Shown: in pieces, positions 47,479 to 62,706 of the stretch
Position numbering within the stretch: the stretch's first letter is position 1
Layout: the number at the start of each line of letters is the position of its first letter
From: Arthrobacter sp. B1I2
Lineage (GTDB): Bacteria > Actinomycetota > Actinomycetes > Actinomycetales > Micrococcaceae
NCBI RefSeq assembly: GCF_030816485.1
Contig: NZ_JAUSYC010000001.1
Location: 1,798,001-1,862,000, forward strand
Reading direction: 5' to 3'
Length of the DNA: 64,000 nucleotides
The notes under the pieces: model-generated
The model's database searches: none
Told to the model about the DNA's origin: nothing
The model's input: the letters and a program-made list of their open reading frames with translations, nothing else
Program-made: the position numbers and the translations under genes

Positions 47479-48537
47479 TCAGCCGTGGACCGTGCTGCGC
47501 GGCGCCTTGGCCGGGCCCGTGCTGGCCCGCACTTCCAGCCGTGGCTGGTAGCGGCTGCCGGCGGTTTCGTTCCCTTCCTTCCGGATCAGCGCCCGGAGCT
47601 GATGCCAGGCCTGCTCGCCCAGTTCGGTGATGGGGACCGCGCCAGTGGTGAGGGCCGGCGTCGTATACCTGGCAAAGGGGATGTCATCGAATCCGGTCAC
47701 GGAGATGTCGCCGGGGACGTCCAGCCCGCGCTCGTGAAGGCCGCTCATCAGGCCCATGGCCACAAGGTCGTTGAAGGCAAGGATGCCGGTGGCCCCGCTC
47801 GCCAGCACGGCGTCCACTGCCTCATGCCCGGTGTCGAAGTCCGAGCCGCCCTCCAGCATGGTTACTTCCACCTCGGGGTGGGCGGCCTTGAACGTCTCCA
47901 GGCCCTTGAGCCGCATGCCGTTGGAGGCGCTGCGGGGCGGTCCTGCAAGGAAGGCCAGTCGGGTGTGGCCCAGTTCCACCAGGTGCCCCGCGATGTCCTG
48001 GACGCCCTGGCCGTAGTCCACCACCAGGCTGGGCACGTTCGGGGCGGCGGTGGTGCGGTTGATCAGCACCAGCGGATGCAGGGAGGGTGCGATCTCCTCC
48101 AGTTCCGCATCCGACATGCGCGGGGCGCACAGGACCAGCCCGTCGCAGCGCCGGCGCGCCTCGCCCGCGAGGATGGACTCCTCGCTAGACACTTCGAATG
48201 AGTCTGCGATAAGCACCCGGTAGCCGTCCTGGGCGGCCGCCCGGCTCAAGCCGCGGAGGATCGCCTGGAAGGTGGGGTTGGCCAGGTCCGGCACCACAAT
48301 GCCGATGGTGTCCGTCTTTCCCAGCGCCAGGCTGCGGCCCACTGGGTTTGGCTGGTACTTCAGCTCTGCAGCGGCTGCGCGGACCCTTGCCGCGATGTCC
48401 GGGTCCACGGTGAAGTTCCCGTTCATGACGCGCGAAACGGTGGCATGGGAAACTCCCGCCTTCACGGCGACGTCCGCGATGCCGATCCGGTCCGCTTGCC
48501 GATTTCCTGGCCATGGGGAACCCTTCTTTTGCGCCAA
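47479..48537 (-). CDS. LacI-family regulator of the uronate/glycan island
   Basis: 352 residues from a TTG at 48537. The helix-turn-helix is IGIADVAVKAGVSHATVSRV, the hinge is YQPNPVGRSLALGK, and a sugar-sensing domain follows. It most likely binds the GAAAnCGnTTTC sites scattered through 48.6-62.9 kb. The N-terminus is uncertain: an ATG at 48514 with a very good ribosome site (AAGAAGG, 7 nt) is one base out of frame with the helix-turn-helix, so either the TTG is used or the sequence has a one-base change near 48502-48511. Confidence 0.85.
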   Translation of the reverse strand: MAQKKGSPWPGNRQADRIGIADVAVKAGVSHATVSRVMNGNFTVDPDIAARVRAAAAELKYQPNPVGRSLALGKTDTIGIVVPDLANPTFQAILRGLSRAAAQDGYRVLIADSFEVSSEESILAGEARRRCDGLVLCAPRMSDAELEEIAPSLHPLVLINRTTAAPNVPSLVVDYGQGVQDIAGHLVELGHTRLAFLAGPPRSASNGMRLKGLETFKAAHPEVEVTMLEGGSDFDTGHEAVDAVLASGATGILAFNDLVAMGLMSGLHERGLDVPGDISVTGFDDIPFARYTTPALTTGAVPITELGEQAWHQLRALIRKEGNETAGSRYQPRLEVRASTGPAKAPRSTVHG

Positions 48538-48691: not shown

Positions 48692-48703
48692 GAAACCGTT
48701 TTC
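48692..48703. promoter_or_regulatory. GAAAnCGnTTTC operator B
   Basis: GAAACCGTTTTC between the LacI gene and the divergent catabolic operon, 69 bp from A and 76 bp from C, both close to whole helical turns. Confidence 0.65.
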
Positions 48704-48721: not shown

Positions 48722-48779
48722 TTGACGGATCGCATTGCGGGTTGATAAAACTGCTATAGACAACCGAGAAAACGCTTTC
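48722..48779 (+). promoter_or_regulatory. Promoter and operator C of the uronate-type operon
   Basis: TTGACG (48722-48727), 17 bp, ATAAAA (48745-48750), then operator GAAAACGCTTTC at 48768-48779, flanked to give a 16-bp near-palindrome from GAG to CTC. The operator sits just downstream of the predicted transcription start, a roadblock position. Confidence 0.65.
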
Positions 48780-48872
48780 TCAGCAATTTCCTGCCCCCCT
48801 GGTGCGCATTGCCGCCGCCGGACCACAGCCGCCGTTCCCACGGCCGGTAATGAGCTTTCGAAAGGGACCCCC

Positions 48873-50291
48873 ATGGTCAACACAGCCGAGACGACGTCAG
48901 CCGCCGCTGCTGCAGTCACTTCCCCCCAGGACGGCGGAAAGGCACGCATCGCCCTGATCGGCACCGGCGGGCGTTCCGAGATGTACATCCGCGCCATCTT
49001 CGGCAAGCACGCCGACACCGCCGAGCTGGTGGCTTTCTCCGACGTGAACCCCGGACGCGTGGAGTTCTACCAGAAGCTCATCCAGGAACTGGGCGCGCCG
49101 GGACCAGTGGCATCCTTCGATCCCGCAGACCTCACCGCCTTCATCCAGGCCAACAACATCGACCGCATCGTCGTCACCACGCCGGACTACACCCATGCCG
49201 ACTACATTGTGGAGGGCCTGCGCGCCGGTGCCGACGTCGTCGTCGAAAAGCCCCTGACCATCGACGCCGAAGGCTGCCGCCGCATCACCCAGGCGGTGCA
49301 CGAGACCGGCCGGAATGTGGTGGTCACTTTCAACTACCGCTACTCGCCGCGAAACAGTGCCCTCAAGGAGATCATCCAAAGCGGCGTCATTGGCAAGGTC
49401 ACCTCCGTCGACTTCAGCTGGGTGCTGGACACCGTCCACGGCGCGGACTACTTCCGCCGCTGGCACCGCGAGAAGAAGAACTCCGGCGGCCTGCTGATCC
49501 ACAAGGCGTCCCACCACTTCGACCTGGTCAACTGGTGGATCGACGATGTCCCGGAGCGCGTCTTCGCCTCGGGTGGACTGAAGTTCTACGGCGACAAAAA
49601 TGCTGCCGAGCGCGGCCTTGGCCCACGGCCGGAGCGGGGAACACCCGACGCCGATGCCCCGGCAACCGCAGAGAAGGACCCGTTCGCGCTTGACCTGAGG
49701 GAGGACGAGCGGCTCAAGGCCCTCTTCCTGGACAACGAGCACTACGACGGCTACCGCCGCGACCAGGACGTGTTCACCGCCGGCATCACCATCGAGGACA
49801 ACCTGGCGCTGGTGGTGGAGTACCAGGGCGGCCCGCGCCTGAGCTACAGCCTGAACGCCCACAGCCCCTGGGAAGGCTACCGGGTGGCGGTCAACGGCAC
49901 CGAGGGACGGGCGGAGCTGGAAGTGGTGGAACGCGCCGCCGTCCTGCACAGCACCGACCAGAAGACTGTGGTGGACCCGAGCGCCACGCCCATTGAGGAA
50001 GAAGACGCCGTTCGCCGCAACGGTGAGCGCCTGGTGGTCCAGCGCCACTGGGAGGCCGCCTACGAGGTGCCCATCGTCAACGGCGAAGGCGGCCACGGCG
50101 GCGGTGACGAGCTGCTCCTCTCGGACCTCTTCAACGGACCGGGCGAGGACCCGCTGGGCCGTCCCTCCGGCTACCTGGACGGGCTGCGGTCGGTGTCCGT
50201 GGGCATCGCCGGCAACCGCTCCCTTGAGACGTCCCTGCCCGTCCGGGTCGAGGAACTGGACCTCGGCGTCGACCTTCGCCGCGGCAAGTAG
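48873..50291 (+). CDS. Gfo/Idh/MocA oxidoreductase heading the uronate-type operon
   Basis: 472 residues, long for the family. The Rossmann loop is ALIGTGGRSEMYIRAIFG; the active motif VVEKPLTIDAEG supplies the conserved Glu-Lys-Pro, and the YRYSPRNSALKEII segment follows. A second conserved patch is HKASHHFDLVNWWIDD. NAD(P)-dependent oxidation of a sugar or uronide is likely. ATG 48873 has AAAGGG at 7 nt. First gene of a five-gene operon (spacings of 10 bp, overlaps and 33 bp) behind operators A-C. Confidence 0.88.
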   Translation: MVNTAETTSAAAAAVTSPQDGGKARIALIGTGGRSEMYIRAIFGKHADTAELVAFSDVNPGRVEFYQKLIQELGAPGPVASFDPADLTAFIQANNIDRIVVTTPDYTHADYIVEGLRAGADVVVEKPLTIDAEGCRRITQAVHETGRNVVVTFNYRYSPRNSALKEIIQSGVIGKVTSVDFSWVLDTVHGADYFRRWHREKKNSGGLLIHKASHHFDLVNWWIDDVPERVFASGGLKFYGDKNAAERGLGPRPERGTPDADAPATAEKDPFALDLREDERLKALFLDNEHYDGYRRDQDVFTAGITIEDNLALVVEYQGGPRLSYSLNAHSPWEGYRVAVNGTEGRAELEVVERAAVLHSTDQKTVVDPSATPIEEEDAVRRNGERLVVQRHWEAAYEVPIVNGEGGHGGGDELLLSDLFNGPGEDPLGRPSGYLDGLRSVSVGIAGNRSLETSLPVRVEELDLGVDLRRGK

Positions 50292-50301
50292 AGGAAAGAA
50301 C

Positions 50302-51264
50302 ATGAGCAGGATATTCGTTACCGGCGGATCCGGCCGCCTGGGCCGCAGCGTGGTGGCAGGGCTGGCGCAGGCAGGCCATGAGGTGGTTTCGGTGGACCGA
50401 GACGCCGTGCCCGCTGATCAGCTGCCGGACGGCGTCGTGCAGGAAACCGCGGACCTCCTGGCACCGGGCGAGGCCCTGCGCCTCCTTAAGGCAGCAAAGC
50501 CCGACGCCGTCATCCACCTTGCGGCGATCGCGGTGCCGTTCAGCGCGCCGGAGGATGTCATTTTCGGCACCAACACCCGGCTCGCCTTCGCGGTGATCAG
50601 CGCGGCGACGGAGCTGGGGGTCCGTAAGATCGTCACCGCCAGCAGTCCGACGGTCCTGGGTTACGGCTGCCCGGCGGGATGGCTGCCGCCGTCGTTCCCG
50701 CTCGATGAGCGCACGCCGCCGAAGCCCTGGAACGCGTATGCGCTGTCCAAGCTCATCGCCGAACAGACCGTGCAGATGTTCGCCGCGGCACAGGGGGAGA
50801 AGATCCGGTACGCGGCTTTCCGCCCGTGCTTTGTCATCTCGCCTGAGGAGTGGGAAGGTGCCCCCACGCAGCAGGGGCACACCCTCGCCGAGCGCCTGGC
50901 CGATCCCGCCCTCTCCGCGCCGGCATTGTTCAACTACGTGGACGCCCGGGATGTGGCGGACTTCCTGGACCTGCTGCTGCGGAAGATGGAAGACATTCCG
51001 AACGGGGAAACCTTCTTCGTTGGGGCGGCCGACGCACTGGCCGCGGCGCCCCTGGCGGAGCTGATGCCAAAGTTCCTGCCGGGAAGCCAAGCGCTCAGCG
51101 CCGGCCTGACCGGAACCAGCCCCGCGTTCTCCATTGCCAAAGCCCAGGAACTGCTGGGGTGGCAGCCCAAGCGCACCTGGCGCACCGAGCTCAAGTCCCA
51201 ACCAACCCTCAACGACGAGGCCTCCACGCTGGTTACCGCCGGCGGAGGCAAGGAGACATCATGA
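50302..51264 (+). CDS. NAD-dependent epimerase/dehydratase-family SDR, possible uronate dehydrogenase
   Basis: 320 residues, extended short-chain dehydrogenase: cofactor loop VTGGSGRLGRSVV, acidic DRD after strand 2, HLAAIAVPF, and the catalytic YALSK. In this pathway setting it could oxidise a uronate to its aldarolactone, as uronate dehydrogenases do, but it is longer than the known Udh (about 265 residues), so this is inference. ATG 50302 has GAGGAAAG. Overlaps the next gene by 4 bp. Confidence 0.83.
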   Translation: MSRIFVTGGSGRLGRSVVAGLAQAGHEVVSVDRDAVPADQLPDGVVQETADLLAPGEALRLLKAAKPDAVIHLAAIAVPFSAPEDVIFGTNTRLAFAVISAATELGVRKIVTASSPTVLGYGCPAGWLPPSFPLDERTPPKPWNAYALSKLIAEQTVQMFAAAQGEKIRYAAFRPCFVISPEEWEGAPTQQGHTLAERLADPALSAPALFNYVDARDVADFLDLLLRKMEDIPNGETFFVGAADALAAAPLAELMPKFLPGSQALSAGLTGTSPAFSIAKAQELLGWQPKRTWRTELKSQPTLNDEASTLVTAGGGKETS

Positions 51265-52166
51265 AATTCGACGGCGTACTCTTCTTCCCCGTCACCCCGT
51301 TCACGGCCGAAGGCTCCGTTGACGTGGAGCTGCTCAAGGAACACATCAGCTCCCGGCTGCCGTTTGGACCGGGTGGCGTCTTCCCTGCCTGTGGCACCGG
51401 CGAATTCCATGCCCTCAGCATCGAGGAGGTCCGCACCGTGGTGGCGGCCGCCGTCGAGGTTGTAGCGGGGAAGGTTCCCGTGGTGGCAGGCGCAGGCGGC
51501 CCCCTGGGGCATGCCTTTGCCGCCGCCCGCGCCGCTGAGGAAGCCGGCGCCGACGCCCTCCTGGTGCTGCCGCCGTATCTGGTCACCGGCCCCACGGACG
51601 GGCTGGTGGCCTACATCGAGGCCGTGGCCAATGCCAGCAGCCTGCCGGTCATCGTGTACCACCGCGGTAACGCGAAGTTCACTGCCGCCTCCATGGCCAA
51701 GCTCGCGGCCAACCCGAAGGTCATTGGCTTCAAGGACGGCCTGGGCGATGTGGGCCTGGCCCAGGAAATCGTCACCGCCGTCAAGGCCACGGGACGGCAG
51801 GACTTCGCCTTCTTCAACGGCCTGCTCACCGCGGAACTGACGCAGGGCGCCTATCGCGGCCTGGGCATCCCGCTCTACTCGTCGGCGGCTTTCGCCATGG
51901 CCCCGGAGATCGCCAAAGCCTACTACGACGCCTACACCGCCGGAGACGAGGAACGACGCAACGCGCTGCTCGAGGGCTTCTACGCACCCCTGGTCCGCCT
52001 GCGCGACCAGACCCCTGGCTTCGGCGTTTCCCTGGTCAAGGCCGGCCTGCGGCTGGGCGGCCTGCCGGTCGGTTCCGTGCGTCCGCCGCTGGTGGACCCC
52101 TCGGAGGAACAGCTCGTGGAGCTCAAGGCCATCCTCGCCAGGGGCTACGAGCTGGCTGGGCGCTGA
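51261..52166 (+). CDS. kdgD: 5-dehydro-4-deoxyglucarate dehydratase-type enzyme (DapA superfamily)
   Basis: 301 residues. A class I aldolase-fold protein with Schiff-base Lys158 in VIGFKDG and the segment GGVFPACGTGEFHALSIEE typical of KdgD. This enzyme dehydrates and decarboxylates 5-dehydro-4-deoxy-glucarate to 2,5-dioxopentanoate (2-oxoglutarate semialdehyde). Start ATG overlaps the SDR stop (ATGA), with AGGAGA at 6 nt. Its two downstream neighbours encode the enzymes expected before and after it in the pathway. Confidence 0.9.
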   Translation: MKFDGVLFFPVTPFTAEGSVDVELLKEHISSRLPFGPGGVFPACGTGEFHALSIEEVRTVVAAAVEVVAGKVPVVAGAGGPLGHAFAAARAAEEAGADALLVLPPYLVTGPTDGLVAYIEAVANASSLPVIVYHRGNAKFTAASMAKLAANPKVIGFKDGLGDVGLAQEIVTAVKATGRQDFAFFNGLLTAELTQGAYRGLGIPLYSSAAFAMAPEIAKAYYDAYTAGDEERRNALLEGFYAPLVRLRDQTPGFGVSLVKAGLRLGGLPVGSVRPPLVDPSEEQLVELKAILARGYELAGR

Positions 52167-53269
52167 TGAGCGCACCGGCGGCCGAAACCGTCCGCACTGT
52201 TCCTTGCATCACCGGCCTGTCAACGCGGCTCCTCACCGTTCCGCTGCGGCGCAGCTGGGGCGTGGAGGCGCCGGAGAACCACGTGATTGCCACGGAGATC
52301 CACACGGACGACGGCGGCACGGGCTTCGGTTTCTCCTGGACACCCACCATCGGCCCCCAGGCAGTCAAGGCGCTGCTGGATTACGACATCGCACCTTTCG
52401 TCACCGGGCTGCCCGCCACCCCCGAGGCGGTGTGGGATGTGCTCTGGAAGCGGCTGCACGAGGCCGGCAGTGGAGGGCTCACCACCATCGCCATGGCGGG
52501 CGTGGACCTGGCCCTGTGGGACCTGCAGGCCCGCCGCGCCGGAACCTCTGTCACCGGCCTGCTGGGCCAACGGCAGGAATCGGCCGAGGTGTACGGCTCC
52601 GGGGTGAACCTGCACTACAGCCTGGACGAACTGGTGGCGCAGGTTGAGCGCTGGGTTGCCGCCGGCCACCAGGCGGTGAAGATCAAGGTGGGCAAACCCG
52701 ACATCCGCGAGGACTACGAACGCGTTGGCGCCGTCCGCTCCGTCCTGGGCCCGGACCGCAGGCTCATGATCGACGCCAACCAGAGGTGGGACCTGCCCAC
52801 CACCTTCCGGGCCCTCGACGTCCTGTCCGAGTTCGGGCTGGAGTGGCTGGAGGAACCCATCCGGGCGGACGATCTCTGGGCCTACCGCCGGCTCCGGAAG
52901 CATTCACCCGTGCCAATCGCCCTTGGCGAAAACCTGCACACCATCTACCGGTTCCGCGATTTCATTGAGGCGGAGGCGGTGGACATCATCCAACCCAACA
53001 TCATCCGGGTGGGCGGCATTACTCCGTTCCGGCGGATCGTTGAGCTGGCACGGACCAACAGCATCAAGGTCATGCCCCACCTGCTGCCGGAACTGTCCGG
53101 GCAGCTGGCCCTGACCCTGGCGGAGCCCACCATGGTGGAGGACGTCGAAGAGGCGTCCTTCGAACAGCTGGGTATCCTGGCCGGGCCGTCGCCGGTGCGG
53201 TTCAGCAACAGCAGGGTGGCGCTGACGGACCAGCCCGGACTGGGCTTCCGTTTCCGGGACAGGCTGTAA
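52166..53269 (+). CDS. Enolase-superfamily sugar-acid dehydratase (mandelate racemase/MLE type)
   Basis: 367 residues. Catalytic pieces are present: VKIKVG with Lys172 and Lys174, metal ligands in MIDANQRW, WLEEPI and LGENLH, and a histidine in MPHLLPE. It should dehydrate glucarate, galactarate or a similar aldarate to the substrate of KdgD, or open an aldarolactone; which one cannot be read. The ATG overlaps the kdgD stop by one base. Confidence 0.85.
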   Translation: MSAPAAETVRTVPCITGLSTRLLTVPLRRSWGVEAPENHVIATEIHTDDGGTGFGFSWTPTIGPQAVKALLDYDIAPFVTGLPATPEAVWDVLWKRLHEAGSGGLTTIAMAGVDLALWDLQARRAGTSVTGLLGQRQESAEVYGSGVNLHYSLDELVAQVERWVAAGHQAVKIKVGKPDIREDYERVGAVRSVLGPDRRLMIDANQRWDLPTTFRALDVLSEFGLEWLEEPIRADDLWAYRRLRKHSPVPIALGENLHTIYRFRDFIEAEAVDIIQPNIIRVGGITPFRRIVELARTNSIKVMPHLLPELSGQLALTLAEPTMVEDVEEASFEQLGILAGPSPVRFSNSRVALTDQPGLGFRFRDRL

Positions 53270-53302
53270 ACATCAATCCCATACGACGAACAGGTACCTG
53301 AC

Positions 53303-54754
53303 GTGACAACTGCAACGCTTTCCCTGACAGAGCTCACCGCTGCGGCCACAGCAGCAGCCAAAATCTCTGCGGCCGCCTCCGACGCCGAGCGCGCCGGCTG
53401 GTTGAACGCGGTAGCGGACGCCCTGGACGCCAATGCCGCCGAACTGGTGGACATCGCGGATGCCGAGACCAGCCTGGGTGCCCCGCGCCTGACCGGTGAA
53501 GTGGCCCGCACCACCGGCCAGCTGCGCCTGTTCGCCCGCGTGATCACCGAGGGCTCCTACATTGAGGCCATCATTGACCATGCGGATCCGGCGGCCACCC
53601 CGCCCAGGCCGGACCTTCGCAGGATCCTCAAACCCATTGGTCCCGTTGCCGTCTTTTCCGCGTCCAACTTCCCGTTTGCCTTCTCCGTGGCCGGCGGCGA
53701 CACCGCCTCAGCCCTCGCCGTGGGCTGCCCGGTGATTGTCAAGGCGCACTCGGGCCACCTGCGGCTTTCCGAGCGGACGGCGGAGATTGTGGCGGAGGGA
53801 CTCCGGGGCGCGGGTGCACCGGACGGGTTGTTTGCCCTGGTGAGCGGACGCGAGGTGGGAACGGCCCTGGTCCAGGACCCTGCCATCAAGGCCGTTGGCT
53901 TCACCGGGTCCATCCCCGGCGGCCGGGCCCTGTTCGACCTTGCCACCTCCCGTCCCGATCCCATTCCGTTCTATGGGGAACTGGGGAGCCTGAACCCTGT
54001 GGTCATCACCGCGGCGGCACTGCAGGCCCGCTCCGCGGAACTCGCAGCGGGACTGGCCGGCTCCTACACCCTTGGTGCGGGCCAGTTCTGCACCAAGCCC
54101 GGACTGGTGTTCATCCCCGCGGGCACGCAGTTTGCCAAGGAAGTGGCTGAAGCCAGCAAGGACAAGCCGGCCCTGGGCATGCTGACCACCCGGATCGCGG
54201 AAGCCTACCCTGACGGGTTGCGCACCTTCGCATCAGTCGAGGGCGTGGACATCGTCAGCGGCAGCGTGGACCAGGATGCGGTGGCAAACGGCGCCGCTCC
54301 GGTGGTTTTCTCCACCAGCGCGGCCAAGGTTTTGGAACGCCCGGAGCAGCTGCTGGAAGAATGCTTCGGCCCCACCACCATCCTCATCGAATACACGGAC
54401 CAGGACCAACTGGCAGCTGTGCTGGCCAAGGTCCCGGGCAGCCTGACTGCCACCCTGCATGCCCAGCCCGATGAGGACATCGCGGACCTGGCGGAGCAGC
54501 TGTCCGGGCTCGCCGGACGCGTCCTGTTCGAAGGCTGGCCCACGGGCGTGGCCGTCAACTGGGCCCAGCAGCACGGCGGCCCGTACCCGGCCACCACCTC
54601 GCTCTTCACCTCGGTCGGCGCGACGGCGGTCCGCAGGTTCCAGCGTCCGGTGGCCTACCAGGACGCCCCCGAGGCAGTGCTGCACCCGGCATTGCGCGAG
54701 GACAACCCGCTGGGCATCCCGCGCCGCGTGGACGGGGAACTGCAGCTTCCGTAA
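53303..54754 (+). CDS. Aldehyde dehydrogenase, 2-oxoglutarate-semialdehyde type
   Basis: 483 residues. The catalytic Cys263 lies in GAGQFCTKPG and the general base Glu226 in YGELGSLNP; SASNFPFAFSVAGGDTASAL is the type III (KGSA dehydrogenase) signature. It oxidises 2,5-dioxopentanoate to 2-oxoglutarate for the TCA cycle. The GTG start is 33 bp behind the dehydratase gene. Last gene of the operon, ending 9 bp before a strong terminator. Confidence 0.9.
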   Translation: MTTATLSLTELTAAATAAAKISAAASDAERAGWLNAVADALDANAAELVDIADAETSLGAPRLTGEVARTTGQLRLFARVITEGSYIEAIIDHADPAATPPRPDLRRILKPIGPVAVFSASNFPFAFSVAGGDTASALAVGCPVIVKAHSGHLRLSERTAEIVAEGLRGAGAPDGLFALVSGREVGTALVQDPAIKAVGFTGSIPGGRALFDLATSRPDPIPFYGELGSLNPVVITAAALQARSAELAAGLAGSYTLGAGQFCTKPGLVFIPAGTQFAKEVAEASKDKPALGMLTTRIAEAYPDGLRTFASVEGVDIVSGSVDQDAVANGAAPVVFSTSAAKVLERPEQLLEECFGPTTILIEYTDQDQLAAVLAKVPGSLTATLHAQPDEDIADLAEQLSGLAGRVLFEGWPTGVAVNWAQQHGGPYPATTSLFTSVGATAVRRFQRPVAYQDAPEAVLHPALREDNPLGIPRRVDGELQLP

Positions 54755-54763
54755 CCAGCCACA

Positions 54764-54813
54764 GACGCAGAAGACCCCGGGACCGATGAACTGGTCCCGG
54801 GGTCTTCTGCGTC
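54764..54813. terminator. Bidirectional terminator between convergent operons
   Basis: A perfect 21-bp inverted repeat (54764-54784 with 54793-54813) around an 8-nt loop, the strongest hairpin seen in the window. It lies 9 bp after the aldehyde dehydrogenase stop and 13 bp after that of the M24-like gene, so it can end both operons. Confidence 0.9.
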
Positions 54814-54826
54814 CTGGACGCGCTCC

Positions 54827-55942
54827 CTACAACTGCAGCGTCACCGGCCGGTCCAGCCCGTTCACGGTAGCCACAGGCCAGCGCGGGTCCACGGTGAGGA
54901 TGCGAAGTCCGGACTCCGTGAGCTGCACCGTGTCCTCGATCTTGACGCCGGGGCCGGAGGGGTTCCACGTGAAGGCCTGGTCCAGGACTACAGTGTCTGT
55001 GGCCTCGGACGTCACCCTTGGATCCCGGCCCGCATAACCGGCCGGACCACCCTGGTGGTGCTGTTCCCACTGGTCCGCCCCGAAACCGTGCCGGCCGTAA
55101 GCGGCCTGGATCTCGGCAAAGATCCTGTCCAGCCGGGTGCCGGGAACGGTGGCATCGAAGATATCCGCTTCCACTGCCGCAATGCGGGCCTCGGCGTCGC
55201 GCTCTTCCGGTGTGCCGGCGTCGAACCTTACCCAGCGGGTGATGTTGGCAACCAGTCCGTCGCGGCGTGCACACGCCACAGCCATGGCCCGCCTGCCGAG
55301 GGGGGCGTGGGTTGCCAGCGGGTGCCGGAAGGTGCTGCGGGAGCTGCCGTTGCACAGGAGCACCAGCGGTTCCGCGCCGGCGGCCACCACGCGGGCGGCC
55401 AGCGCCGCAACCAGCTCGAACTCGGTGGTGTGGGGGCGGGCAGCGGACAGGACGTCGGTCATGAGGCCGGCCAGCTCCGCGCTGAGCAGGGAATAGCGGG
55501 CACTTTCCGCCGGGAGGAGCTGCTGGCGGGCGGCGCGCAGCTGCACGGCGACGTCCGCTTCCGCCAGCGGCGGCCGGGAGCTGTTCCCGACGGCGGCGGC
55601 GGCCTGGTGCAGGTTGCCGTACCAGGGCACCGTGTGCAGGTTGACCCCGGCGGGCAGCTCTTCGGCTGCGATCCTGCCGGCTTCATTGTTGAACGTCACC
55701 AGGTGGTCGCCGTCGCGGTCCACCAGCAGGGCGGCGATGGGGTCGCCGGCCAGGCTGATGTGGACGCGGCTGCCGTCCAGGTACCAGGTCAGGGCGGTGT
55801 TCGTGGTCAGGAGCAGGGAGTCCTGCCCGGCAGCGTCGAGGATGTCCAGGACGCGCTGGCGCTTGATGGTCCGGTCCGTCCTTGACCCTGGAGCCAGGCG
55901 CGCGTCCCGCGGGGGGACGGCTGTAGTTGTTGTTTGGCTCAT
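54827..55942 (-). CDS. M24/creatinase-fold protein with degenerate metal site
   Basis: 371 residues: an N-terminal creatinase-type domain and a C-terminal pita-bread fold. Compared with M24 metallopeptidases, the metal Asp in the usual SD-ITR motif is Asn233 (VANITR), and the EP glutamate is Asn327 (TWNPSG); His in EQHHQGG and Glu336 (VKIEDTV) remain. A dinuclear metal centre is therefore unlikely, and a peptidase function should not be assumed. ATG 55942 overlaps the upstream gene by 4 bp. It is last in the minus-strand operon. Confidence 0.8.
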   Translation of the reverse strand: MSQTTTTAVPPRDARLAPGSRTDRTIKRQRVLDILDAAGQDSLLLTTNTALTWYLDGSRVHISLAGDPIAALLVDRDGDHLVTFNNEAGRIAAEELPAGVNLHTVPWYGNLHQAAAAVGNSSRPPLAEADVAVQLRAARQQLLPAESARYSLLSAELAGLMTDVLSAARPHTTEFELVAALAARVVAAGAEPLVLLCNGSSRSTFRHPLATHAPLGRRAMAVACARRDGLVANITRWVRFDAGTPEERDAEARIAAVEADIFDATVPGTRLDRIFAEIQAAYGRHGFGADQWEQHHQGGPAGYAGRDPRVTSEATDTVVLDQAFTWNPSGPGVKIEDTVQLTESGLRILTVDPRWPVATVNGLDRPVTLQL

Positions 55943-57984
55943 GAGGGGTCCCCCTGCTGGTTGATCAGTGCTTCGATGTCGGGGGTGGCCAGGATTCCGT
56001 CGGCCACCAAAACGGTGATGCTGCGTCGCACCGGTCTGCCGGATTCGGCGATCACGGGGGTATCCCACGCCAGCGACTGGCCCACGCCGGGGTAGCCGTC
56101 CACCCGGACAAACCATGGGTCCGAGGATTCCTCCGGGGCGACGAACACCAGGGTGGCGGGGCCGCCGTCGAACAGTCCTGACCAGGCGAGCCAGCGCGCG
56201 ATGCTGCCGTGGGTCTCCGCCTCGCCGGCGCCGGCCGGCGTCCACACGGCCGCGTCCACGCATCCGGGCAACCGCCAGAAGAAACCGCCATACCCGCCCT
56301 CGAACCGTCCGTTGGATCCGGGGCTGCCCAGGCTGACCGGCCTGTCACCGGCAGGGGACAGCGCGAAGTCCAGGGACAGGCGCCAGATGGAGGGCGCGAC
56401 GCCGGACCAGGCCCAGGAGCGCTCCTCCAGAAGGATGGGGGCACCGTCGGGGCCGTTCCAGCTCAGGGTTTCCTGGAGCCGGCCAACATGTCCGCCGCCG
56501 GCGTCCGTCCGCTCCGAGGTGGTGCCGGTGCTGGTGATGCTGCCGTGGTCGGGGCGCCAGATGTACTGCCCTGCCTCCCGGGTGTAGGTGCGGCCGCCCC
56601 AGAAGTTGACCCCGTCCACATCCTGCAGTGCCACGCCCACGCCCAGGTGCCATACGTGGTCCAGCGGCTGGTGGTCCGTCACCACGGTTCCGGCCAGCGT
56701 CCGGACCGGGTGCAGGTAGGGGCGCGGGGAGGAGACTGGCCGGATGCGGCTGCCGTCCTGGTAGTCCGCCACCGGGTGGCCGTCCAGGGTCAGCGTGCGT
56801 TTGGGTGGCAGGGCCCGGGCCCAGGGGACGCCGAGTTCGGCGAACGTGGCCTGCGCCTTGATCGCTCGCGCGATCAGGTCGCTGATGCCCCCGACCACGG
56901 GATGCGCGTCGTCGCCGTCGCCTTCCCAGGAGACGTATTCTGCGCCGATCGGGGCTGGCGCGGGAGACGTGCGGATGGCTTCCAGGACGGCAGTGAACGC
57001 GCCGGTGTCCTGCAGCGCGCAGAGCAGGGGAGCCCCCGTGGCCCGGGCAGCCAGCAGGTTCTCCAGCAGGTCCGTGCGGCCGTATGATTCCCGGCGCTCG
57101 CCGTCGGCGGTGGTGATGACAACCTGGTCCTGGGTGTAGGAGAGGGTTATGTCGCCCAGGGTTCCATGTACCGTGACGGTGGGGTCCAGCTGTTCGGGGG
57201 CGCAGAGTGTGAGGGCGCACAGCAGCGTGGTTCCCTGAGTGGTGCGGACCCGGAGTACAGAGGTGTCGTCGCTTTCAGTCTGGTTGGCCCGGTACAGGTC
57301 CGTTTCCACGGAGGCTACGTCGGCGAGGGTCCGTGCGCCGGCAAGGTACAGGCCCGTAGCGACGGCGTGGGCCAGCGCATTCGTTGCCACGCCATCCACC
57401 ACGTCGACGCCGTCCAGGCTGCGCTTCCCGGCCCAGCGTGAGCGCTTGAAGTATGCCTTGGTCCGGAGCCACTGGCCGGTGGCGCTGATGCCCAGGACGG
57501 TGCCGATCTCCCCAGCGGCCACCGCGGCCCTTATGGCGGGCAGGGCCTGGGATCCCAGGCTCTGGAAGCCCACCTGGACCAGCTGCCCCTTGTCCCGTGC
57601 CACGCCGATGACCTGTTCGAACTGCGCCATGGAAGCCACTGGAGGCTTTTCCACGAAGACGTCCATCCCGGCGGACAAGGCTTTGATGGCCAGCGGGGCA
57701 TGCGTTTGGATGGGCGTGGCAAGAATGACGACGTCGATGCCCGGCTGTGCGGCCAGCAGCCCGTCCAGGTCGGGGAACACGGCGACCGAACCGGCGAGGC
57801 TGTCCGGCTGCGGCGGGTTGGGATCGGCGACGGCCACCAGTTCCAGGGCGCCGCTCCGTTCAAGCCGCGCCAGGTTGGCAAGATGCCGCTCGCCGAAGCC
57901 GTGCACGCCTACCAGTGCCACTCGCGGGATGGCCGTGGGTGCGGGGTGCTGGTGCGTGGTGTCCGCTGAATGCTGTGTGGTCAC
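55939..57984 (-). CDS. Fusion: Gfo/Idh/MocA oxidoreductase plus DUF6807 (PmoA-like) domain
   Basis: 681 residues. Residues about 20-365 are a complete Gfo/Idh/MocA enzyme (ALVGVHGFGERHLANLARLE, then FVEKPPVASMAQFEQVIGVA with the catalytic Glu-Lys-Pro). Residues about 395-670 form a beta-rich domain of the DUF6807 family (YLHPVRTLAGTVVTDHQPLD, HVWHLGVG, NFWGGRTY, GGYGGFFWRLPG). The frame is unbroken across the junction, with no internal stop or start signal. Combining both activities suggests that the DUF6807 part binds or processes the oxidised sugar; this is inference. Directly upstream of the M24-like gene and overlapping it by 4 bp. Confidence 0.85.
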   Translation of the reverse strand: MTTQHSADTTHQHPAPTAIPRVALVGVHGFGERHLANLARLERSGALELVAVADPNPPQPDSLAGSVAVFPDLDGLLAAQPGIDVVILATPIQTHAPLAIKALSAGMDVFVEKPPVASMAQFEQVIGVARDKGQLVQVGFQSLGSQALPAIRAAVAAGEIGTVLGISATGQWLRTKAYFKRSRWAGKRSLDGVDVVDGVATNALAHAVATGLYLAGARTLADVASVETDLYRANQTESDDTSVLRVRTTQGTTLLCALTLCAPEQLDPTVTVHGTLGDITLSYTQDQVVITTADGERRESYGRTDLLENLLAARATGAPLLCALQDTGAFTAVLEAIRTSPAPAPIGAEYVSWEGDGDDAHPVVGGISDLIARAIKAQATFAELGVPWARALPPKRTLTLDGHPVADYQDGSRIRPVSSPRPYLHPVRTLAGTVVTDHQPLDHVWHLGVGVALQDVDGVNFWGGRTYTREAGQYIWRPDHGSITSTGTTSERTDAGGGHVGRLQETLSWNGPDGAPILLEERSWAWSGVAPSIWRLSLDFALSPAGDRPVSLGSPGSNGRFEGGYGGFFWRLPGCVDAAVWTPAGAGEAETHGSIARWLAWSGLFDGGPATLVFVAPEESSDPWFVRVDGYPGVGQSLAWDTPVIAESGRPVRRSITVLVADGILATPDIEALINQQGDPS

Positions 57985-58016
57985 GTGGGTCCCTTGGAAG
58001 CTGTTGGGAAAGGGAG

Positions 58017-59138
58017 TCAGGAGGCCAGCGTTTGGGCCAGGAAATCAAGGGCTTCGTCCTGCATGGCCGCGGTGAAGACGTGGCCGCCGGGGGAGAAGCT
58101 GCCGGTATACCGGTCCGTGCCGCCGTGCAGGGATTCCAGTAACCGGTGCGCCTGGCGCATCCCGTCCTCGGGAAAGAGTTCGTCGGCCAGGGCGTACTGC
58201 ACCAGGAAGCGCGCGGCTGCTGCGCGGGCGGTGAGCTCGGGCCAGTCACCCAGCTTCCACAGCCCGGGGGTCTGCAGGAGCCAGGAGTGCGCGTCCAGGT
58301 AGGCGGGAAAGAGGGATCCGAAGGTGGTCATCATGCACGTCACCACCGCGGCCCGGATACGGGGGCTGAGGACTGCGAGGGCAAGGGAGCGGCTGCCGCC
58401 TCCGGAGAAACCGATGCAGCCCAGCCTGTCCTCGTCGACGTCCGGCAGGGCCGCCAGGATTTCGAGCGCGGAGAGATCGTCGTGCGCCACCATGCCGGCC
58501 AGGCTGGTGCCCAGCAGGCCGGCCGCTTTGGCAACCGTGTCCTCGTGGCAGCCGGCAGCGGCGTTGTATTCGTCTGCGACGGAAGGCACGACGCCGTCCT
58601 CCCGCCACTGCGCCTGCCTCGCCGCTGCCGCTGCGGCGGTCCGCCACGGGGGATCGGAAAGGTCGAATTTGCGGCTGCCCCAGGCGAACGCGTCGTGGGC
58701 CAGGACCGCGAAGCCGCGGCGGGCGGTGTCCGTCGCTAGGGCGCGACCGTCGTAATGGCCGGCGCGGGCGGCTGCCGCGGACGGGTGGCTGTCCGGTAGC
58801 TCCACCAGGCGGTCGGCCCCGCCGAACTTGTTTCCGCCATGGCAGTGCAGGGCCAGGACCCCCGGCAGGGGCCCGGAACGTCCGGCCGGCCTGATCAGCC
58901 AGCCCGTGGTCCGCGGTCCGAAGCCCAACTGCCAGCTGAGCTGGGAGGTGGTGACGCCGTCGTCCGTTGCCTCCCAGTGCACCGTCGCCGCAGGTGGTGC
59001 ACCTGCGCCGGGGACACCCAAGGCGTCCGAAAACTCCTGCGCCGGCCGGGTGGAGGCCTGGTGACGTGGATGTTGCCGCACGTAGGCAGGCCAGTCGTCG
59101 TAGCCGGCGATGGCGCTGGGCCGCGCTGTTTGGATCAT
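58017..59138 (-). CDS. Alpha/beta hydrolase, acetylxylan-esterase or dienelactone-hydrolase type
   Basis: 373 residues. The nucleophile Ser245 lies in GFSGGG, the acid is probably the Asp in YALADELFPEDG, and the histidine is in FSPGGHVF. The N-terminal part has GVLALHCHGGNKFGGADR as oxyanion loop. Such proteins remove acetyl or other ester groups from plant-derived oligosaccharides. No signal peptide, so it acts on imported material. Second gene of the minus-strand operon, 54 bp after the binding-protein gene. Confidence 0.85.
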   Translation of the reverse strand: MIQTARPSAIAGYDDWPAYVRQHPRHQASTRPAQEFSDALGVPGAGAPPAATVHWEATDDGVTTSQLSWQLGFGPRTTGWLIRPAGRSGPLPGVLALHCHGGNKFGGADRLVELPDSHPSAAAARAGHYDGRALATDTARRGFAVLAHDAFAWGSRKFDLSDPPWRTAAAAAARQAQWREDGVVPSVADEYNAAAGCHEDTVAKAAGLLGTSLAGMVAHDDLSALEILAALPDVDEDRLGCIGFSGGGSRSLALAVLSPRIRAAVVTCMMTTFGSLFPAYLDAHSWLLQTPGLWKLGDWPELTARAAAARFLVQYALADELFPEDGMRQAHRLLESLHGGTDRYTGSFSPGGHVFTAAMQDEALDFLAQTLAS

Positions 59139-59192
59139 CTTGCCTGCCTCCTTTCGGTGGTGGTTCTGGCTTGTCAGGTGCTGGCGCTGCGG

Positions 59193-60488
59193 TCAGGCGA
59201 GGTTTTGGTTGACCTCGGAGATCATGCCTTTGGCTGCGTCCCGCGGGGAGATCTTGCCGAAGAGTACATCTGTGTTGTAACGGTTCAGAACCTCCATGGT
59301 TGCCGATGATCCTGCTGGGAACGGCTTGGGGGCCTGGACCTTCAGGGCGGCAATGCGGTCCAGGTATGCTGCCTCCTTCTGCTGGGTTTCCTTCAGCAGG
59401 GGAGTGATTCCGGCCTTCAGCTCGGTGTTGGCAGGCATGCCCCGGTCACTCTTGATCTTGGAAGCTGCGTCCATGTTGTTGACCAGGTAGTTGATGAACA
59501 GGGCCGCTTCCTTGGGCTGGGACGACTTGGAGGAGATGGCGTATTCCATGGAGGAGCGCAGCCAGGAGCCGGCCTGCTTGCTTTCGCCAGGCAGCTTGGC
59601 CATGACCAGGGGCGCGCCGGAGTAGGACGTCATCTGGTTGCTCCAGGAGATTTTCATGCCCTGCTTTCCCTGTCCCATCAGGGTCATTTCCGGTTGCGCG
59701 GAACCGTCTTCAACGGTCTGCGATGCGGAGGGCGCGCCACCGGTATCCATCAGCTTCTTGTTGAGCTCGAACCAGCGGCTCAGGGTTTCCTCGCTGATGC
59801 CCATCTTCTTTCCGTCGTCCGCGTAGAGGGCTTCCCCGTTCTGGCGGGCCCACACTGCAAGGAAGGAGTCGTTGGCCATGGGCGTGGTGCCGAAGGTTCC
59901 GGCCGGCGACTTTTGGGTGATCCCGGCCGCGATCCTGGCGTAATCGTCCCAGGTCCACGTCTCGTCATCCGGCATGGGGACGCCTGCGGCCTCGAAAACC
60001 TTGGGGTCAAGGACCATGGACATGGAATTAACTCCTGCCGTGACGGTGTACTGCTTGCCGTCGATCTTGCCCAGGTCAACGGTTCCTTCGGCGAACTTGG
60101 AGGTGTCGATCTGGTCCTTGACTTTGTCCAGGTCCAGCAGGACGCCGCGGCTGGCGTACTCGCTGGGGTAGGCGCCGCTCATGGCGATGACGTCCGGCGT
60201 GGTTCCGCCGGCGATCTGGGTGGCCATCTTGTCCCAGTAGGAGCTGAATTCGGTGTTTTCGCCCTGGACCCTGATGGTGGGGTTTGCGGCTTCGAAGGCT
60301 TTGATGACCTCCATGGTGGTTTTCGCCCTGGAGTCATTGCCCCACCACGCGAACCGGATGGTTACAGGGTCTTCCGCCGTCCCCACTTTTCCCGCCTGCG
60401 GGCTGCTGCCGCAGCCGGAGAGCATCATGGCAAGGGCGGCGGCAGCGCCGGTGACGCCCATGACGGATTTCTTGAGACCAAACTTCAT
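59193..60488 (-). CDS. Sugar ABC transporter, substrate-binding lipoprotein (copy 1)
   Basis: 431 residues. Lipobox LSGC at Cys26, then a family 1 solute-binding domain (TIRFAWWGNDSRAKTTMEVI, TPDVIAMSGAYPSEYASRG, ETWTWDDYARIAAGI). It is clearly related along its whole length to the binding protein that begins at 62944. ATG 60488 has GAGGGG upstream. First gene of the minus-strand operon, divergent from the permease pair that it probably serves, and controlled by the operators at 60538 and 60583. Confidence 0.92.
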   Translation of the reverse strand: MKFGLKKSVMGVTGAAAALAMMLSGCGSSPQAGKVGTAEDPVTIRFAWWGNDSRAKTTMEVIKAFEAANPTIRVQGENTEFSSYWDKMATQIAGGTTPDVIAMSGAYPSEYASRGVLLDLDKVKDQIDTSKFAEGTVDLGKIDGKQYTVTAGVNSMSMVLDPKVFEAAGVPMPDDETWTWDDYARIAAGITQKSPAGTFGTTPMANDSFLAVWARQNGEALYADDGKKMGISEETLSRWFELNKKLMDTGGAPSASQTVEDGSAQPEMTLMGQGKQGMKISWSNQMTSYSGAPLVMAKLPGESKQAGSWLRSSMEYAISSKSSQPKEAALFINYLVNNMDAASKIKSDRGMPANTELKAGITPLLKETQQKEAAYLDRIAALKVQAPKPFPAGSSATMEVLNRYNTDVLFGKISPRDAAKGMISEVNQNLA

Positions 60489-60537
60489 TGGTTGTGCCCC
60501 TCGGCTTGTCATCTAGGGTGGAGTGAGGCGGGTAACA

Positions 60538-60549
60538 GAAAACGTTTTC
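60538..60549. promoter_or_regulatory. GAAAnCGnTTTC operator D
   Basis: GAAAACGTTTTC, a perfect palindrome, lies at the predicted start of the minus-strand transcript and overlaps the -35 region of the plus-strand promoter. Confidence 0.75.
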
Positions 60550-60553
60550 TCAA

Positions 60554-60582
60554 AAACTAACAAAGGGCTATACAGGAGTCAA
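60554..60582 (-). promoter_or_regulatory. Promoter of the minus-strand catabolic operon
   Basis: Minus strand: TTGACT (60577-60582), exactly 17 bp, TAGTTT (60554-60559). On the plus strand TATACA (60569-60574) is a candidate -10 for the permease operon with its start near operator E. Confidence 0.65.
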
Positions 60583-60594
60583 GAAACCGTTTAC
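60583..60594. promoter_or_regulatory. GAAAnCGnTTTC-like operator E
   Basis: GAAACCGTTTAC, one mismatch to the consensus, 45 bp from operator D. It abuts the minus-strand -35 box and covers the predicted plus-strand start, so the D/E pair can govern both directions. Confidence 0.6.
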
Positions 60595-60741
60595 TTTGGT
60601 ACGGAGCCGCATTTCGACGGCGCTCCCGGCGACGGACGATCGCAGCCCCGCAAGGTGGCAGCAGGCCGTACCGGGAAGCGCCCCTTCCCATCGCTTCGCG
60701 ATGACCGCAACGTGGAGGCCACGATGACCAAAGGAGACCAC

Positions 60742-60831
60742 ATGGCCGCAAAACACATCTCCAGGACACTGCGTCCGGCCCGGGTGCCAGCCGCAGTTTG
60801 CCTGGCGTCCCGGACAGGGCAGCTCCTGTGA
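60742..60831 (+). CDS. Short leader peptide upstream of the permease gene
   Basis: 29 codons, MAAKHISRTLRPARVPAAVC and nine further residues, with a strong ribosome site (AAAGGAG, 7 nt). Its stop overlaps the GTG of the permease (GTGA), which itself has a poor ribosome site. A coupling or control role is likely; the peptide is basic and matches no family known to me. A chance ORF cannot be excluded. Confidence 0.5.
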   Translation: MAAKHISRTLRPARVPAAVCLASRTGQLL

Positions 60832-61772
60832 GCGCCATCAGCGAGCTCAGCTCGATTAGCCGGCGGAAGGGCAAAGCCACACCTGAGGAGAAGAAGGCGA
60901 ACAGGCGGGACAACAAGGCCGCTTACATCTTCCTGCTGCCGTGGCTGGTAGGCCTGGTGGCAATCACCATCGGCCCCATGCTGATGTCCCTGTACTTGTC
61001 CTTTACGGACTACAACCTGCTCCAGCCGCCGGAATGGACAGGGCTGGACAACTTCACCCGGATGCTCAGTGATGCCCGGCTGCACAATTCGCTGCGGGTG
61101 ACGTTTACGTATGTCTTTATCGGGGTGCCGCTGCAGCTCGCTGTGGCTCTGTTGATTGCGCTCGTGCTGGACAAGGGGCTCCGCGGGCTCCCGTTCTACC
61201 GTTCGGTGTTTTACCTGCCGTCCCTGCTGGGCGGTTCGGTTGCCGTGGCCATTCTGTGGAAGCAGATTTTCGGCACTACGGGCCTGGTCAACCAGGTCCT
61301 GGCCATGTTCGGGATCCAGGGCCCGGGGTGGATCTCGGACCCCAGCACGGCTTTGGGTTCGATCATTCTGCTGCACGTCTGGACTTTTGGTGCCCCGATG
61401 ATTATCTTCCTGGCAGGCCTGCGGCAGATCCCCAACATGTACTACGAGGCCGCCAGGGTGGATGGCGCCACCACGCTCCAGCAGTTCGGGCGGATCACCC
61501 TGCCGATGCTGAGCCCGATCATCTTCTTCAACCTGGTGCTGCAGATCATCGGTTCCTTCCAGTCGTTCACCCAGGCGTTCATCGTCTCCGGTGGCAACGG
61601 CGGGCCTTCGGACTCCACGATGTTCTTCACCCTGTACCTCTACCAAAAGGGCTTCGGCCAGTTCGACATGGGCTACGCATCAGCCATGGCCTGGGTGCTG
61701 CTGCTCATCATCGGCGTGTTCACCGCCATCAACTTCATCGCTTCTAAGTATTGGGTTTTCTATGACGACTAA
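60828..61772 (+). CDS. Sugar ABC transporter permease, MalF type
   Basis: 314 residues with six predicted helices after a basic N-terminus (RRKGKATPEEKKANRRDNKA). The coupling loop is YYEAARVDGATTLQQFGRIT. The GTG at 60828 is coupled to the 29-codon leader. It overlaps the MalG-type gene by 11 bp. Together with the two binding lipoproteins it should form an importer; no ATPase gene is present. Confidence 0.92.
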   Translation: MSAISELSSISRRKGKATPEEKKANRRDNKAAYIFLLPWLVGLVAITIGPMLMSLYLSFTDYNLLQPPEWTGLDNFTRMLSDARLHNSLRVTFTYVFIGVPLQLAVALLIALVLDKGLRGLPFYRSVFYLPSLLGGSVAVAILWKQIFGTTGLVNQVLAMFGIQGPGWISDPSTALGSIILLHVWTFGAPMIIFLAGLRQIPNMYYEAARVDGATTLQQFGRITLPMLSPIIFFNLVLQIIGSFQSFTQAFIVSGGNGGPSDSTMFFTLYLYQKGFGQFDMGYASAMAWVLLLIIGVFTAINFIASKYWVFYDD

Positions 61773-62706
61773 GCTTGAGACGCTGCCCACCCCGGACGAG
61801 AAGTCAGCGGGCGCCGGCAAGCCTACGAACCGCAAGCGCAGGGTCCGCGAGTCCCGGGGAACGCTGGCCTTCAGCCGTGCCCAGCGCGGTAAATCGCTGA
61901 TGAAGCATGGCATCCTGATCCTGGCCGGCGGCCTGATGATCTATCCGCTCCTGTGGATGGTGGTGTCTTCACTGCGTCCGAACGAGCTGATTTTCCGGGA
62001 GCCCGGCCTGTGGCTGAACAGCCTGGAGATGAGCAATTACACCTCCGGCTGGTCGGCCCTGACGCACCCCTTTGGCCACTACATGCTGAACTCGGCCATT
62101 GTGGTAATCGGCTCAATTCTAGGGAACCTGGTGTCCTGCTCCATGGCCGCCTACGCCTTTGCCCGCCTGCAGTTCACGGGCAAGAAACTGTTCTTCGGGA
62201 TCATGCTGCTGACCATCATGCTGCCGTTCCACGTGGTCATCGTTCCGCAGTACATCCTGTTCTCCCAGATCGGCTGGGTGAACACCTTCTGGCCGCTGCT
62301 GGTGCCCAAACTGCTGGCCACGGACGCGTTCTTCGTCTTCCTCATGGTGCAGTTCATCCGCGGCATTCCCCGCGAACTTGATGAAGCGGCGCGGATTGAC
62401 GGTGCCGGCCATCCGCGGATCTTCCTGCAGGTGATTCTGCCGCTGATGGTGCCCGCACTGGCCACCACCACCATCTTCACCTTCATCTGGACCTGGAACG
62501 ACTTCTTCGGCGCCCTCATCTACCTCACGGACCCTGACATGTTCACCGTCCCGGTGGCGCTGCGGGCCTTTGTGGATTCGCAGTCCGCCACCAGCTGGGG
62601 CTCGCTGTTCGCCATGTCCATCGTCTCCCTGCTGCCCGTCTTCCTGGTGTTCCTCTTCGGCCAGCGATTCCTCATCAAGGGCATCGCCACCACCGGTATC
62701 AAGTAA
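61762..62706 (+). CDS. Sugar ABC transporter permease, MalG type
   Basis: 314 residues. The cytoplasmic N-terminus is about 45 residues and basic; membrane helices follow from LILAGGLMIYPLLWMVV. The coupling loop is LDEAARIDGAGHPRIFLQVI, and the end is LIKGIATTGIK. ATG 61762 lies inside the end of the MalF-type gene, so both are co-translated. Followed by a terminator at 62719-62768. Confidence 0.92.
   Translation: MTTKLETLPTPDEKSAGAGKPTNRKRRVRESRGTLAFSRAQRGKSLMKHGILILAGGLMIYPLLWMVVSSLRPNELIFREPGLWLNSLEMSNYTSGWSALTHPFGHYMLNSAIVVIGSILGNLVSCSMAAYAFARLQFTGKKLFFGIMLLTIMLPFHVVIVPQYILFSQIGWVNTFWPLLVPKLLATDAFFVFLMVQFIRGIPRELDEAARIDGAGHPRIFLQVILPLMVPALATTTIFTFIWTWNDFFGALIYLTDPDMFTVPVALRAFVDSQSATSWGSLFAMSIVSLLPVFLVFLFGQRFLIKGIATTGIK

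Follow-up and report, generated by a model that had tools for sequence, protein, structure and literature searches.

The oxidative hexuronate pathway outlined for Agrobacterium and Pseudomonas in PMC6353982 employs Udh, Gli/Gci, KdgD and a ketoglutarate semialdehyde (KGSA) dehydrogenase, taking galacturonate through galactarolactone and 2-keto-3-deoxygalactarate to 2-oxoglutarate. Here we describe a related gene cluster of two facing operons in a stretch of 64,000 nucleotides (the window, G000:C1:1798001-1862000) of the 4.68 Mb genome G000, whose closest named relatives detected are Arthrobacter and Pseudarthrobacter. It is proposed, at a probability of about 0.6, that this locus forms the intracellular part of a pectin (homogalacturonan) regulon under LacI control, in which galacturonate would be oxidised. 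The cluster and the oxidative pathway have in common a KdgD-type dehydratase, an enolase-superfamily enzyme, an aldehyde dehydrogenase and a short-chain dehydrogenase/reductase (SDR), which lie in one operon here (the plus operon). They differ in that the SDR is no close relative of Udh, the enolase carries a QPN motif, and GfoA, a Gfo/Idh/MocA-DUF6807 fusion (Gfo-DUF6807), an M24-like protein and an esterase are added. The route varies the known oxidative pathway, to which it adds three conserved proteins of putative function; a preliminary description of the locus had suggested a new pathway, whereas most of the plus operon looks like the known oxidative galacturonate route.

In the 3-keto-glycoside pathways, BT_2158 and BT_2159 are 3-dehydrogenases (NCBIfam), and BT2157 and DUF1080 proteins are ketoglycoside hydrolases (PMC9007349). 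Both these pathways and our locus place Gfo/Idh/MocA oxidoreductases in a glycoside catabolic cluster, and 8tdi is among the solved relatives here; however, neither DUF1080 nor AP_endonuc_2 was found among the window proteins scanned, which contain DUF6807 and the M24 fold instead. Creatinase (which is metal-independent), the dimethylsulfoniopropionate lyase DddP and ectoine hydrolase are non-peptidase proteins that share the M24 fold at about 12 percent identity, whereas the protein here has conserved motifs of its own (CARR, HHQGG and FTWNPS) and a sugar-acid context. The classical isomerase route of pectin breakdown (GH105/PL22, KduI and KduD) has the same substrates, and pectate lyase, pectinesterase and polygalacturonase apparently stand under one operator here, but GH88/105, PL22 and a true KduI were not found in G000.

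A LacI-type operator and a probable pectin regulon

The two operons have a LacI-type operator in common, AGAAAACG(C/T)TTTCT, at window positions 48767 and 60537. With one mismatch allowed, these are its only places in the window (four strand matches against 0.04 expected in shuffles); G000 as a whole has the exact 14-mer at six places and a reversed control pattern nowhere. A looser 12-mer gave 10 strand matches at eight places in G000, which include five of the six 14-mer places, the others being a second site at the plus-operon promoter, one before another solute-binding protein (SBP) gene (L109) and one inside a frame. We infer that the encoded LacI binds this operator and would control the regulon; a literature search on LacI control of galacturonate use in Arthrobacter returned no relevant paper.

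In relatives, the operator was examined at the cluster promoters. Of 38 Arthrobacter-group loci, 33 have an exact AGAAANCGNTTTCT ahead of the SBP, AXE (esterase), Gfo-DUF6807 or first ATP-binding cassette (ABC) permease gene, and 24 of the 34 with GfoA have one ahead of that gene; 85 operator sites were counted in all and no site of the reversed control pattern. Cut contigs or a misplaced GfoA start account for eight of the 10 misses at the GfoA promoter: the fetched DNA ends there in L028 and L030-L033, about 70 bases are left in L022, and in L018 and L039 sites lie beside LacI but the GfoA start is called too short. L037 and L038 are true misses, both before GfoA and at the facing promoter, where the other misses are a short contig (L010), a two-mismatch site (L034) and an exact site unassigned to a gene (L036). 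L102 and L103, from other families, each have one exact site near LacI, and L101 has only one- and two-mismatch sites. In G000 itself, an operator-like sequence, AGAAAGCGCTTTCA, also stands ahead of a second SBP gene just past the ABC permeases (L098:2843-2856).

The pectin-gene sites were read in G000, where the four exact 14-mers outside the window lie ahead of an SBP gene (L107) and genes of L108, L106 and L099. In L108 the operator is followed by a pectate lyase (PL1) gene and then a GDSL-pectinesterase (CE8) gene, in L106 by a gene encoding fibronectin III and GH28 (polygalacturonase) domains, and in L099 by a GPH symporter gene that scores best with a glucuronide transporter model (467 bits, below the cut-off of 528). 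Judged by eye, the pectinase genes start with signal-like sequences. Because these other operators precede PL1 and pectinesterase, GH28, SBP and symporter genes, the substrate is most likely the galacturonate of pectin, and we consider a pectin regulon very probable. The uronic-acid substrate of the preliminary description is retained, and an esterified form is likely since the same operator precedes the pectate lyase-pectinesterase pair; its glucuronoxylan or glucuronate ester gives way, on the evidence of the operator sites, to pectin galacturonate. A Paenarthrobacter strain grows on pectin and has CE8 and PL1 proteins with consecutive accession numbers (PMC12844168), a report whose main text does not contain the terms uronate, galacturonate, dehydratase or LacI. 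One KduI-family match in G000 was not accepted as KduI proper, since the IolB model gives it 270 bits against 205 and the KduI model 24 bits against 250.

Enzymes of the plus operon

The operator pattern and the protein families can be read from the sequence itself: every gene named in the preliminary description was recovered as an open frame with its domains (open reading frame list, Pfam and NCBIfam). That inventory omitted GfoA, the SBP, the ABC permeases (60798-62706), LacI and the operators. The facing operon reads SBP-esterase-Gfo/DUF6807-M24, one gene more at its head than first described; neighbouring genes overlap by 1-4 bases at SDR/KdgD, KdgD/enolase and Gfo-DUF6807/M24, a common feature of operons. 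No glycoside hydrolase was recognised by Pfam among the nine proteins of 48873-60512, as had been noted for both operons.

The KdgD-type protein scores 394 bits with NF002958, above the subfamily cut-off of 278, and matches the keto-deoxy-galactarate dehydratase 4ur7 (E 3.7e-56), in alignment with which it carries GTGEF, YHRGN and GFKDG. KdgD is marked by a Schiff-base Lys, a Tyr and the GTGEF motif. The assignment is supported at the level of subfamily and motif, not at equivalog level. For the SDR, matches to solved Udh structures (3ay3, E 4.1e-7; 3rft, E 2e-5) both rank below UDP-sugar epimerases, and a literature search on uronate dehydrogenase in Actinobacteria gave no lead. In all 41 aligned rows the enolase keeps a KxK motif, the His and three ligands (an Asp and two Glu); it scores 231 bits with TalGalacDh against an equivalog cut-off of 500. 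Galactarate dehydratase and galactarolactone cycloisomerase share the residues of the mandelate-racemase subgroup, including the His-Asp dyad. Solved enolases related to the window enolase show QPD, and QPN is an unusual change of the catalytic dyad. The nearest solved structures of the aldehyde dehydrogenase are the aldehyde dehydrogenases 1eyy and 3v4c, and the best solved relatives of GfoA include WlbA (3q2k, ranking first) and the glucuronide-3-dehydrogenase 8tdi. By position and family, the SDR, enolase and aldehyde dehydrogenase fit the oxidative galacturonate route.

Proteins of the facing operon

M24 metallopeptidases bind metal through five ligands (D, D, H, E and E). The M24-like protein has the pita-bread fold and lacks this set: in a weak alignment with Pyrococcus prolidase (E 0.034), at the positions that we take to be the metal ligands, the second Asp is Asn233, the His is Gly, the first Glu is not Glu and the first Asp is gapped, so that the last Glu (Glu336) is the only ligand retained. 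Asn233 and Glu336 are invariant in 24 aligned sequences, and the metal-site loss reported earlier is thereby borne out.

A fold search with the two-domain model of Gfo-DUF6807 gave the UDP-uronic-acid 3-dehydrogenase WlbA as the nearest fold, with 8tdi in the top ten; these matches are taken up by the Gfo domain, at 20-23 percent identity to WlbA/8tdi-type enzymes, with many other Gfo proteins scoring close behind. The Gfo domain has the fold and the EKP catalytic motif of 3-dehydrogenases, and EKP is invariant. A literature search on DUF6807 found as its only text match a remark on Pfam numbering, and one on 3-keto-glucuronides found no relevant paper; further searches on glycan breakdown and on non-hydrolytic pectin use gave no lead. 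Gfo-DUF6807 and the M24-fold protein are candidates for the cleavage of imported galacturonides. The AXE1-like hydrolase has a putative triad of Ser245 and Asp319 (each in 38 of 38 rows) and His353 (36 of 38, with two gaps) and no evident signal sequence.

G012, G054 and G067 have further Gfo-DUF6807 relatives, each a single long frame about 50 to 60 percent identical, that are probably paralogues with other substrates. At G026:C1:3760138-3762179 the Gfo and DUF6807 matches form two overlapping pieces, a split or frame-shifted fusion. In Paeniglutamicibacter (L037:6613-13047), genes for a second Gfo protein, DUF993 and AP_endonuc_2 come before the Gfo-DUF6807/M24 pair, the AP_endonuc_2 gene adjoining that of the fusion, a set reminiscent of 3-keto-sugar pathways.

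Conservation of the cluster

The scan for Gfo-DUF6807 gave 65 loci, of which 49 (L003-L051) were counted; L052-L067, with weak or partial matches and including four more Actinomadura loci, were left out. The neighbours are conserved as a set, which the preliminary description had offered as a check: 29 of the 49 loci hold all eight core genes (GfoA, SDR, KdgD, enolase, aldehyde dehydrogenase, M24, Gfo-DUF6807 and AXE) at no less than 40 percent identity, and the rest hold part of the set, some being short contigs and others really incomplete. The ABC permease pair is kept in 40 of 49, at identities of at least 55 and 49 percent. In the Actinomadura/Thermoactinospora loci with full-length matches (L041-L047 and L049), the SDR, enolase and Gfo-DUF6807 genes are consecutive on one strand in eight of eight.

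We also surveyed 119 genomes, G000 included, with Gfo-DUF6807 and M24 (both at E 1e-40) and the enolase (1e-90) as queries. Gfo-DUF6807-like matches, paralogues included, occur in 64 genomes, M24 in 52 and the enolase in 49. Every enolase-bearing genome has M24 on the same contig within 12 kb (49/49), and 48 of them have a Gfo-DUF6807-like match somewhere; M24 occurs without the enolase in three genomes. Because 46 of the 49 belong to one genus, these are not independent events and the conservation is partly ancestry. Outside the main genus, G108, G092 and G114 hold M24, LacI, KdgD and the enolase, together with the SDR and/or GfoA, within about 12 kb in altered order. That the two operons belong together and have a joint function is well supported, and the earlier suggestion that they form one system agrees with the shared operator, the co-occurrence and the one-strand arrangement in Actinomadura.

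Proposed pathway

In the proposed pathway, exported pectate lyase, pectinesterase and polygalacturonase under the same operator would make methylated or acetylated galacturonides, which the ABC and symporter systems would import and the AXE-like hydrolase would strip of their esters. The SDR would oxidise galacturonate at C1, the enolase would yield 2-keto-3-deoxyhexarate, KdgD would convert this to 2-oxoglutarate semialdehyde, and the dehydrogenase would form 2-oxoglutarate. The reaction order is taken from the published oxidative pathway and, like the substrates, is one that we infer; an oxidative end route for galacturonate is likely. On chemical grounds, the 4,5-unsaturated lyase product, once its ring has opened, should be turned directly into the KdgD substrate by C1 oxidation, which would account for the dispensability of KduI. 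This is a possible explanation of how such actinobacteria may use pectin without KduI, GH105 or PL22.

GfoA, Gfo-DUF6807 and the M24-fold protein might free or convert galacturonyl residues by 3-oxidation, a tentative assignment that we think rather unlikely. Non-hydrolytic release is plausible, given that several of the usual intracellular enzymes were not found and that uronic-acid 3-dehydrogenases are among the Gfo proteins to which the Gfo domain is similar. Slightly more doubtful still is an intracellular opening of galacturonides in the Arthrobacter group that needs neither a hydrolase nor a classical lyase, in which Gfo-DUF6807 would oxidise C3, a creatinase-like metal-free M24 protein or DUF6807 would split the bond, GfoA would restore the redox balance, and saturated and unsaturated residues would both enter at the KdgD substrate. 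If true, this would give DUF6807 and this M24 branch their first functions. The analysis ties DUF6807 and the metal-poor M24 branch to a definite metabolic context, the breakdown of pectin, and predicts a testable substrate, regulator and operator for one strain.

Counterevidence and alternative explanations

Several observations weigh against a pectin regulon with an oxidative end route. The KdgD-type protein falls below the TIGR03249 equivalog cut-off (275 against 374), for which reason we call it KdgD-type and not proven KdgD. The SDR is a distant relative of known uronate dehydrogenases and longer (320 against 267 aa), and neither it nor the enolase reached a curated equivalog cut-off or had a close characterised enzyme in the searches made. 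The dyad Asp of the enolase is Asn278 in 41 of 41 aligned rows; because of this it is not filed as a galactarate dehydratase or galactarolactone cycloisomerase and is only proposed to act likewise. No lactonase was recognised by Pfam among the cluster proteins. The pectin link beyond the cluster rests on one genome, and the 12-mer site inside an unrelated frame (G000:C1:4188793) looks like chance. Among the relatives, the fetched DNA of L019 and L035 contains no plus operon; neither the operator nor KdgD nor a close enolase is present in L037 and L038 (Paeniglutamicibacter), and no operator lies at these promoters in L041-L050, the Actinomadura group included. In the eight Actinomadura/Thermoactinospora loci, KdgD occurs once (L043, between SDR and enolase) and M24 was not found.

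The alternative that survives best, at somewhat less than an even chance, is an ordinary oxidative galacturonate pathway only: exported enzymes such as GH28 would give free galacturonate for the plus operon to burn, and the facing genes would have accessory tasks (lactone opening, mutarotation or dealing with modified residues) and would cleave no glycoside. In its favour, the route outlined in PMC6353982 agrees with KdgD and with the logic of the genes, the GH28 gene carries the operator, and in G092 and G114 plus-operon genes and M24 persist with no Gfo-DUF6807 nearby. However, the ABC importer together with an esterase that has no evident signal sequence suggests the import of esterified fragments. 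PL1 makes unsaturated products, and these the plain route does not handle without KduI.

It is unlikely that Gfo-DUF6807 is a redox-neutral NAD-dependent glycosidase cleaving galacturonides as GH4 and GH109 enzymes do, by transient C3 oxidation, elimination, water addition and re-reduction. The invariant EKP motif, WlbA as the best structural row with 8tdi in the top ten, and the failure to find GH88/105 and PL22 are consistent with this mechanism; against it, the identity is low, many other Gfo proteins score nearly equally and the fold matches cover the Gfo domain.

Degradation of glucuronoxylan or methylglucuronate is improbable, although xylanase genes of family GH10 occur close to the cluster in L043 and L102. 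As the main substrate glucuronoxylan was rejected, GH67 not being found in the genome and the operator marking pectin genes. G000 also has a separate glucuronate isomerase route, with glucuronate isomerase (UxaC) and ManD models above cut-off and a reductase-like gene between them, so galacturonate is the likelier duty of the cluster. Glucuronate isomerase-family loci are present at G000:C2:167854-169167, to which the curated models were applied, and G000:C1:347636-348943, each with a reductase-like and a ManD-like enolase gene.

A chance adjacency of the operons, or frozen synteny, with a separate substrate for each is very improbable. In its favour, 46 of 49 enolase-bearing genomes are of one genus; against it stand the shared operator, the genes rearranged yet linked in G108, G092 and G114, and the one-strand order in Actinomadura, and mere synteny was rejected.

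Features of the locus and flanking genes

The features of the pectin cluster are collected in Table 1. The ABC permease gene pair diverges from the SBP gene, and the LacI gene from the plus operon.

Table 1. Genes and operator sites of the cluster, in window coordinates.
Feature	Position	Strand	Evidence
LacI-family regulator, proposed repressor of the regulon	47479..48537	-	NCBIfam LacI-family matches, all below the cut-offs shown; beside the operon in many loci
Second operator-like site GAAAACGGTTTC, plus-operon promoter	48692..48703 (G000:C1:1846692-1846703)	-	12-mer search; second site at this promoter in many relatives
Operator AGAAAACGCTTTCT, ahead of plus operon	48767..48780	+	Intergenic palindrome search; window and genome pattern searches
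GfoA, Gfo/Idh/MocA oxidoreductase, 472 aa	48873..50291	+	PF02894, PF01408
SDR, NAD-dependent epimerase/dehydratase family; proposed galacturonate 1-dehydrogenase	50302..51264	+	PF01370, E 9.1e-32
KdgD-type 5-dehydro-4-deoxyglucarate dehydratase	51261..52166	+	NF002958; 4ur7 match
MR/MLE enolase-superfamily protein; proposed galactarate dehydratase or galactarolactone cycloisomerase	52166..53269	+	Pfam/NCBIfam; QPN replaces QPD
Aldehyde dehydrogenase; proposed 2-oxoglutarate-semialdehyde dehydrogenase	53303..54754	+	PF00171
M24-fold protein without most metal ligands	54827..55942	-	
Gfo/Idh/MocA domain fused to DUF6807	55939..57984	-	
AXE1-like serine hydrolase; proposed cytoplasmic pectin-fragment deesterase	58017..59138	-	PF05448, E 1.6e-7
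SBP, lipoprotein-like start, heads facing operon	59193..60512	-	PF01547
Operator AGAAAACGTTTTCT, perfect palindrome, between SBP and ABC permease genes	60537..60550	+	Palindrome and pattern searches
Second operator-like site AGTAAACGGTTTCT	60582..60595	-	Read from sequence; 45 bp-spaced pair in many relatives
ABC sugar permease 1; start codon possibly further in	60798..61772	+	Pair kept in 40/49 loci
ABC sugar permease 2	61762..62706	+	ORF list; locus survey

Right of the window lie genes for GH42, GH78, a GDSL esterase and DUF1961 and, judging by the look of the sequence, rhamnose genes, in keeping with pectin as the substrate. There, at L098:13350-17830, a Gfo paralogue of 60 percent identity with no DUF6807 match adjoins the GH78 alpha-L-rhamnosidase gene.

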